Source of the DNA: Nitrososphaeria archaeon
Lineage (GTDB): Archaea; Thermoproteota; Nitrososphaeria; Geothermarchaeales; JDFR-13
Reading direction: 5' to 3'
Length of the DNA stretch: 64,000 nt
Assembly (NCBI GenBank): GCA_027078545.1
Contig: JALWXN010000004.1
Span: 206,737-270,736, forward strand
This document shows, piece by piece, positions 1 through 55,804 of the stretch (the first letter of the stretch is position 1; each line of letters begins with the position of its first letter). The translations under genes were made by a program, and so were the position numbers. The notes under the pieces are model-generated. The model was given only the letters and a program-made list of their open reading frames with translations, did no database searches and was not told the origin of the DNA.

Positions 1-427
1 CACCCTCCTCTACGTGTAGTGAGGCCTCTACACCGCTCCTCCTAGGGTCGTGTAGCGGTAGGTCTAGGTAGGCCTCTAGGAATCTGTAGAGCTCTCCCCC
101 TCCCTCCCCTGATAGTGTGGAGACTATCCTCCTCTCCCTGTTCTTCTGGTCTACTAGGAGCTTCACCCCTCCTATGTATGCCTCTCCAAGTATGGAGAGT
201 GTTTTGTAGCCCGGCTCTGTGAATAGGATCTTGCCCGGGTTGCCCTTCCAGGTCTCGATTATGATGACCTTTGAATATCCCTTTGTAACCGCGTATTCCC
301 ATAGGTCTCGTAGGCTCTTCTTCCCCCTGTTTATCTTCGTCGATGTCGGGATGACCCAGCTGAGCTCCTTAGCTAGTCTGCTCACCCTCCTAGTCGGGCG
401 TCTGGAGGTCGTTATGAGGATGGCTAT
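1..427 (-). CDS. Brix-domain (Imp4-like) ribosome biogenesis protein, C-terminus cut by window edge
   Basis: Reading the minus strand from 427 gives an open frame that runs off the window, with an N-terminus ILITTSRRPTRR followed by INRGKKSL, the signature of archaeal Brix/Imp4-like proteins that act in pre-rRNA assembly. It lies 17 bases downstream of the eL43 stop, as the last visible gene of the exosome cluster. There is no ATG, GTG or TTG between the in-frame upstream stop and the conserved N-terminus; the best start is ATA at 425-427, preceded by GGAGGGG with 7-nt spacing. The first canonical start (a GTG 14 codons in) would delete the conserved first strand. The ORF track misses this gene because of the start. 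Family call is strong, the start is inferred. Confidence 0.82.
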   Translation of the reverse strand, partial: MAILITTSRRPTRRVSRLAKELSWVIPTSTKINRGKKSLRDLWEYAVTKGYSKVIIIETWKGNPGKILFTEPGYKTLSILGEAYIGGVKLLVDQKNRERRIVSTLSGEGGGELYRFLEAYLDLPLHDPRRSGVEASLHVEEG

Positions 428-434
428 TTTGGAG

Positions 435-441
435 CCCCTCC
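435..441 (-). promoter_or_regulatory. Shine-Dalgarno that fixes the non-canonical Brix start
   Basis: GGAGGGG on the minus strand sits 7 nt before an ATA codon and inside the 17-base gap after the eL43 stop. No canonical start codon is at a usable distance, so the site supports initiation at ATA. Confidence 0.55.
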
Positions 442-444
442 GGG

Positions 445-678
445 CTACCTCACCTTATGGGTTAGGAAGGGCTCGTAGGCGCCTCCGGCGAAGGTGTATC
501 CACACTTCCTACATCTCCATATCCCTACTGATACCCACTCCACCTTCTTGTGCATGCACTGGGGGCATTCATACTTGGAGAGCTTCTTCAGCATGACTAG
601 GTTCCAACGCTTCCTTAGTGAGGCTCCGTAGCGAGGCCCGAATCTGGCGGCTATATTTGGTATCTTCTTCTTGGCCAT
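445..678 (-). CDS. rpl37ae: Large ribosomal subunit protein eL43 (L37Ae)
   Basis: A 77-residue basic protein with a four-cysteine zinc ribbon, CPQC near residue 38 and CRKC near residue 56, in the pattern of eL43. Length is normal for archaea. It lies between Rrp42 and the Brix gene in the exosome superoperon, a conserved archaeal neighbourhood. The start ATG gives the usual MAKKK-type basic N-terminus. Confidence 0.95.
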   Translation of the reverse strand: MAKKKIPNIAARFGPRYGASLRKRWNLVMLKKLSKYECPQCMHKKVEWVSVGIWRCRKCGYTFAGGAYEPFLTHKVR

Positions 679-20955: not shown

Positions 20956-21088
20956 GGGGCCGTGGCCCAGCCAGGAAGGGCGGCCGACAATATCGTTGGC
21001 TGAGGCTCCAGATCCCGGTATTAGGACCCTCTGGGGATGACTGGTGGATACCGGTCGGTCGTGGGTTCAAATCCCACCGGCCCCACCA
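20956..21088 (+). tRNA. tRNA-Trp(CCA) with two introns, CCA encoded
   Basis: Acceptor GGGGCCG/CGGCCCC, D-stem GCCC/GGGC, T-arm GTGGG/CCCAC. A 7-base loop CTCCAGA closed by GCCGG/CCGGT only forms after removing an 18-nt intron at 20987-21004 (position 29/30 or 30/31) and a 38-nt intron at 21012-21049 (37/38). The first intron makes a GCCGAC/GTTGGC hairpin with the exon. The mature molecule is a regular tRNA-Trp. Confidence 0.88.
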
Positions 21089-41312: not shown

Positions 41313-41432
41313 GCCGCCGTAGCTCAAAGGTGGAGCGCCCGGCTCATAACTAGGATGTTATGAGCTATGACCCTATGGGGGATGATGTGGGAGACCGGGA
41401 GGTCGCGGGTTCGAATCCCGCCGGCGGCACCA
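41313..41432 (+). tRNA. Elongator tRNA-Met(CAT) with a 45-nt intron, CCA encoded
   Basis: Acceptor GCCGCCG/CGGCGGC, anticodon stem CCCGG/CCGGG, T-arm GCGGG/CCCGC. Removing 45 bases (41349-41393, position 37/38) gives loop CTCATAA. The 5' half of the anticodon loop pairs perfectly over eight bases with the intron (CTCATAAC/GTTATGAG), hiding the anticodon in the precursor. An Ile2-type CAT tRNA is less likely given the acceptor sequence. Confidence 0.9.
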
Positions 41433-55707: not shown

Positions 55708-55804
55708 GGGCCCGTGGCCTAGCCTGGACTAGGGCGGCGGCCTTCTAGCTATGTCCATGGTGGATAGCCGCAGATCCCGGGTTCGAATCCCGGCGGGCCC
55801 GCCA
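55708..55804 (+). tRNA. tRNA-Arg(TCT) with an 18-nt intron, CCA encoded
   Basis: Acceptor GGGCCCG/CGGGCCC, anticodon stem GCGGC/GCCGC, T-arm CCGGG/CCCGG. The loop CTTCTAA forms after removal of 55748-55765 (position 37/38). TAATAAATATT about 30 bases upstream is a TATA candidate. Confidence 0.92.

Follow-up and report, generated by a model that had tools for sequence, protein, structure and literature searches.

The Brix/Imp4-like gene at the left end of the 64,000-nucleotide window analysed here (positions 206737-270736 of contig C4 of the host genome, G000, an assembly of 11 contigs that probably derives from a metagenome and belongs to a heat-loving archaeon not yet in culture) very probably starts at an AUA codon (425-427, minus strand). 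This codon would be read by the ordinary CAU initiator tRNA with the help of a strong, well-spaced Shine-Dalgarno (SD) sequence, and the same device seems to serve a few other genes of the family, likely with low output. Judged from the genomes compared, AUA, though rare, appears to act as a genuine start signal in this archaeal family, one that current gene finders miss.

The Brix gene has 175 codons in all. The first 142 lie in the window (1-427, minus strand), and the remainder extends past its left edge to a stop codon at 206636-206638 of contig C4. Upstream, the frame is closed by an in-frame TAA (455-457, minus strand), and from this codon down to the GTG at 383-385, the first canonical in-frame start, the minus-strand Brix frame contains no ATG, GTG or TTG. 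It reads CCA TAA(457-455) GGT GAG GTA GCC CGG AGG GGC TCC AAA ATA(427-425) GCC ATC CTC ATA ACG ACC TCC AGA CGC. The SD sequence, GGAGGGG (435-441, minus strand), is separated from the ATA by a spacer of exactly 7 nt (434-428), and its duplex with the 3′ end of 16S rRNA (GGATCACCTCC) has an energy of −11.6. In the host genome the 16S 3′ end reads GGCTGGATCACCTCC, so that the GGAGG upstream of Brix is able to pair with it. Measured from the end of GGAGG, the distance to the start is 9 nt, the modal value among long-SD ATG, GTG and TTG starts of the host genome (37 of 158). The gene preceding Brix, eL43 (L37Ae; 445-678, minus strand), has an ATG start and a TAG stop (447-445) located 17 nt before the ATA. 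Both genes belong to the archaeal exosome operon, which comprises proteasome alpha, SBDS-like, rrp4, rrp41, rrp42, eL43, Brix, a Pcc1-like ORF and a prefoldin-like ORF; names other than eL43 and Brix were assigned by reading the ORF translations.

The encoded protein carries the N-terminal (I/L)TTSR motif as well as the RG and GNP motifs, and in the alignment of relatives (A2) the residues T6, S8, R9, R10, R34, G35, G62, N63 and P64 are invariant. A profile of the family matched PDB chains with E-values of 8e-23 (2CXH) and 4e-14 (human IMP4). In the solved Brix/IMP4 chains (2CXH, 1W94 and human IMP4) the profile matches begin at the LITTSRRP block, and in 1W94 they do so from residue 2. The LITTSRRP block and the GNP motif are shared with archaeal Brix proteins (Mth680, 1W94; Aeropyrum, 2CXH) and eukaryotic IMP4. 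The window protein differs from them in its AUA start and in scoring under the cut-offs of the domain libraries, with E=7e-21 against NCBIfam NF003053 (under its equivalog cut-off) and E=0.21 against Pfam PF04427.

Alignment of the Brix 5′ end with its relatives, as proposed in the earlier note, placed the ATA in the Met column of the family, where ATG is found in G007, G010 and G006, TTG in G001 and GTG in G005. The sister species G002, a separate assembly (WAKB01000010.1, MAG of Candidatus Geothermarchaeota archaeon isolate S012_44_esom; Ca. Geothermarchaeota sits within Thermoproteati in the NCBI taxonomy), has a Brix protein 97% identical to that of the host and a gene with 94.5% nucleotide identity (29 differences). 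It conserves the ATA, and its start region is the same as in the host, with 0 differences from the TAA to the start, which speaks against a chance arrangement. G003, a member of the host's genus, likewise has a Brix frame without a canonical start; here an ATT occupies the Met column and a G-rich run ends 6 nt upstream of it. Across the four species of the host genus with a Brix copy, the start codons are ATA, ATA, ATT and TTG, and ATG is found in none; the three species with ATG at the Brix start all belong to other genera. No Brix relatives beyond the order were found in our search. All the compared genomes look like assemblies from metagenomes, several of them fragmented. G003 (C45) and G004 (C121) match letter for letter in the eL43-Brix start region and in the Brix ORF, even though these genomes are assigned to different genera; this is probably one contig binned twice, that is, cross-contamination, and the two Brix copies were counted once. 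The observations of the earlier note on this site stand: no canonical start occurs between the TAA and the ILITTSRRP segment, GGAGGGG lies exactly 7 nt before the ATA, and the ATA falls where relatives have their initiator codon. Together with the conserved ATA in G002, the strong SD and the other AUA genes described below, they make initiation at AUA, which the note had proposed, the best-supported reading.

To look for further cases, a homology screen for similarity reaching upstream of the first canonical start was applied to C4 of the host (1.14 Mb) and to C1 of G006 (1.58 Mb), a representative of another genus of the family; strand filtering was needed, as antisense ORFs swamped the unfiltered version. 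Besides Brix, it gave two clear AUA cases, a class-III aminotransferase (PF00202) and an ABC-2 permease (PF12698). The aminotransferase has ATA in six genomes from three genera (G000, G002, G003, G010, G006 and G009), always 6-7 nt behind GGAGGTG, and in more distant family members (G008 and another copy in G010) ATG takes its place. Canonical codons nearby have unworkable spacing: the in-frame GTG of G003 and G009 is part of the SD itself, and the TTG that G010 has two codons upstream of the ATA is only 3 nt past GGAGG. Between the host and G002, the ratio of synonymous to nonsynonymous changes is 13:0 from the ATA to the first ATG and 1:3 over the 14 codons that precede the ATA. The permease has ATA behind GAGGTGATC in G006 and G009 and ATG instead in G004, G010, G008, G003, G002 and G000; in the codons that follow the ATA the ratio is 15:0.

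The strength of the SD sequences was assessed by their duplex energy with the 16S tail relative to 146 ATG starts matched between G000 and G006. The Brix SD lies at the 4.8th percentile, i.e. it surpasses those of 95% of the ATG starts sampled, the aminotransferase SD at the 0.7th percentile in G000 and the 0th in G006, and the permease SD at the 0th. This strength is no selection effect, because the SD played no part in finding these three genes, which were recognised by homology. The weaker near-cognate cases, namely the ATT of Brix in G003 and an ATT at C4:912626 of the host, have ordinary SDs.

A second screen, based on the SD, gave different results in the two genomes. Of the 9 codons in G006 that follow an SD and lie upstream of the first canonical start, 5 are ATA, against 210 of the 4127 codons scanned (Fisher p=3.5e-5), two of the five cases being weaker (orf 2595, with a GTG four codons downstream, and orf 632, with a TTG seven codons downstream). 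In G000, which is more G+C-rich than G006 and in which the SD-only screen is noisy, there was no ATA enrichment (1 of 27), and Brix was not counted there because its SD match is only 5 nt long. For the two genomes pooled, p=0.004. This screen also identified an uncharacterised protein of 215 residues with ATA in G006 and G009 and ATG in other genera. Several further genes may use other near-cognate starts. In the host, an uncharacterised 141-residue protein conserved with G006 (C4:912626-912201; L068:12201-12626, minus strand) lacks ATG, GTG or TTG before its conserved N-terminus and has a candidate AUU start, the ATT behind GGGAGGGGAGGGG. Ahead of its conserved N-terminus, lipoyl synthase (NF004019; C4:1124232-1123339; L079:3339-4232, minus strand) likewise lacks a canonical start, and the near-cognate choice is not clear-cut (ATC at 1124229 behind GGTGAT, or CTG). 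In G006, TruD (C1:1437256-1436063, minus strand) has a possible ATT start behind GAGGTGA, and a bifunctional-nuclease-like protein (C1:971835-971284, minus strand) a possible ACG start behind AGGTGA.

How AUA would be decoded was considered from the initiator tRNA and the initiation factors. The initiator tRNA gene of the host (C4:509179-509268) contains an intron and has the anticodon CAU, an A1-U72 pair and a GGG/CCC anticodon stem, so an altered initiator anticodon was rejected as an explanation. Among the resolved tRNA genes there is no tRNA with a UAU anticodon, including an A1-U72 initiator; a few multi-intron tRNAs were only partly resolved, and for about 0.1 Mb in other contigs coverage came from the family search only. 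Many tRNA genes have introns, some of them long or apparently multiple (window positions 20956-21085, 41313-41429 and 55708-55801; elsewhere on C4 of the host, 187123-187276, 292081-292230 and 395379-395489), and several are therefore misnamed by standard tRNA finders. The gene for aIF1 is present and its sequence looks normal, hence a missing aIF1 was likewise rejected as the cause. Since aIF1 is reported to disfavour non-canonical start codons in Sulfolobus (PMC6237735), the use of AUA must overcome this factor.

These data bear on the possibility that AUA is decoded as Met by a dedicated mechanism, such as a modified C34 on the initiator (as with mitochondrial f5C), an additional initiator or A-to-I mRNA editing. 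Mitochondrial tRNA-Met does read AUA through f5C34 (PMC5372736, PMC10033821), and tRNA modifications are invisible in DNA. However, a single CAU initiator was identified, with no UAU initiator among the resolved tRNA genes; AUA is common as an Ile codon inside these very genes; and dedicated decoding is expected to free AUA from the need for very strong SDs. We consider such a mechanism quite unlikely. Somewhat less probable still is initiation of Brix at a neighbouring near-cognate codon such as the ATC at 421-419. The tolerance in spacing is several nucleotides wide, yet the ATA is the codon that has the modal spacing and that aligns with the Met column of five relatives, and in the aminotransferase and the permease, which have the same geometry, the codon is always ATA.

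If translation began further downstream, at GTG 385-383, which is the first codon that a gene finder would take as a start, a shorter protein would result. This protein would lose 14 conserved residues, including the LITTSRRP block with the invariant T6, S8, R9 and R10, which are common to all relatives and to the solved Brix/Imp4 chains. The AGGAGG preceding this GTG abuts it with a spacer of zero. Moreover, the 14 codons from the ATA to the GTG evolve as coding sequence, with 3 synonymous and 0 nonsynonymous changes between the host and G002, few as these are. On these grounds the shorter protein is highly improbable. In this stretch (383-391, minus strand, including the GTG) the AGGAGG consists of two Arg codons, AGG AGG, that form an SD-like run at the internal GTG and could mislead gene finders toward GTG 385.

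Equally improbable in our view is that ribosomes reach the Brix frame from eL43 through a −1 frameshift and not by independent initiation. The frame is indeed open from the TAA (457-455) across the eL43 stop (447-445), which leaves a slippage window of 7 bases, but these 7 bases contain no slippery heptamer, and frameshifting leaves the strong SD at modal spacing unexplained. In addition, G003 has a TAG in the Brix frame beyond the end of eL43, and the aminotransferase and the permease lack such geometry altogether. Least probable of all is the base-call error that the earlier note had named as its main alternative: the host is probably metagenome-assembled and ATA is one base away from ATG, but this explanation was rejected because the separately assembled G002 shares the block with its ATA letter for letter despite the 29 other base differences in the gene, a canonical start is absent from G003 as well, the aminotransferase starts with ATA in six genomes, and there are more AUA-start genes in the family.

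With initiation at AUA as the preferred reading, the strong and correctly spaced SD would position the 30S subunit at the Brix AUA, where the ordinary CAU initiator Met-tRNA would be accepted despite the mismatch at the third codon position, and the protein would presumably begin with Met in the normal place. Initiation is likely to be of low efficiency, judging by analogy with known AUA starts, so that Brix output would be low compared with that of eL43, its highly expressed neighbour in the operon. Such a weak start may set the ratio of Brix to eL43, Brix presumably being needed in smaller amounts. Regulation through the Brix AUA start is possible, and AUA use may have been selected instead of tolerated. 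A potential hairpin (AGCCC-GGAG-GGGCU; 433-446, minus strand) spans the eL43 stop and the SD, and one may speculate that it couples translation of Brix to that of eL43. Alone, it has a predicted energy of −12.3 kcal/mol with a z-score of −1.04, no better than shuffled sequence, and it is absent from the longer fold. The earlier note called ribosome-assembly genes interesting places for start-codon control; a control specific to ribosome assembly is unsupported as stated, the aminotransferase, the ABC permease and the uncharacterised gene also starting with AUA. That a transporter and an aminotransferase use this codon too speaks against a device peculiar to ribosome assembly. It is a more far-reaching and, in our estimate, unlikely proposition that AUA serves the family as a permanent fourth start codon, maintained by selection as a low setting at certain genes in several genera, and that on Brix it ties the supply of an assembly factor to eL43 translation or to aIF1 fidelity and makes the gene an archaeal counterpart of infC.

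In E. coli, infC starts with AUU and is autoregulated by IF3, which itself senses the codon. It resembles Brix in having a non-canonical AU-N start and in being a gene of the translation apparatus; it differs in that its product is the fidelity factor IF3, whereas Brix is an assembly factor. To our knowledge, IF3 is absent from archaea. Archaeal GUG and UUG starts are also near-cognate, read by the CAU initiator tRNA and assisted by the SD, but their mismatch is at the first codon position and that of AUA is at the third. Closer in codon identity are infC, ccpN and citZ of S. aureus, which start with AUA, infC and ccpN having an extended SD (PMC13009471). Reporters with the AUA starts of ccpN and citZ yielded ~10-30% of the AUG output, the start and SD of ccpN are conserved between species, and infC is thought to be autoregulated (PMC13009471). 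The archaeal cases are similar in combining an AUA start with a strong SD. They differ in that the S. aureus genes are bacterial, with discrimination by IF3, whereas the archaeal ones involve different genes and would depend on aIF1, aIF1A and aIF2. A review of archaeal initiation names AUG, GUG and UUG (PMC7531240), and in a survey of 260 prokaryotes AUA, AUU and AUC were allowed as starts where so annotated, with no discussion of archaeal cases in the sections consulted (PMC5397173). Bacterial AUA starts are already known (PMC4611024; PMC13009471), and no description of an archaeal AUA-start gene was found in the open-access literature searched. The AUA genes described above would represent near-cognate initiation rescued by a strong SD, in this case archaeal and shared by several genera.

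Common gene finders use AUG, GUG and UUG only, and as a result AUA genes are annotated with wrong starts or without their conserved N-termini; gene searches in these genomes should therefore admit ATA and ATT where the SD is strong. A weak start of Brix beside a highly expressed ribosomal-protein gene would offer a simple means of setting stoichiometry within one operon. More generally, a family in which AUA has been kept at one gene across genera provides a natural test of how aIF1 and SD strength determine the fidelity of archaeal start selection, without IF3.
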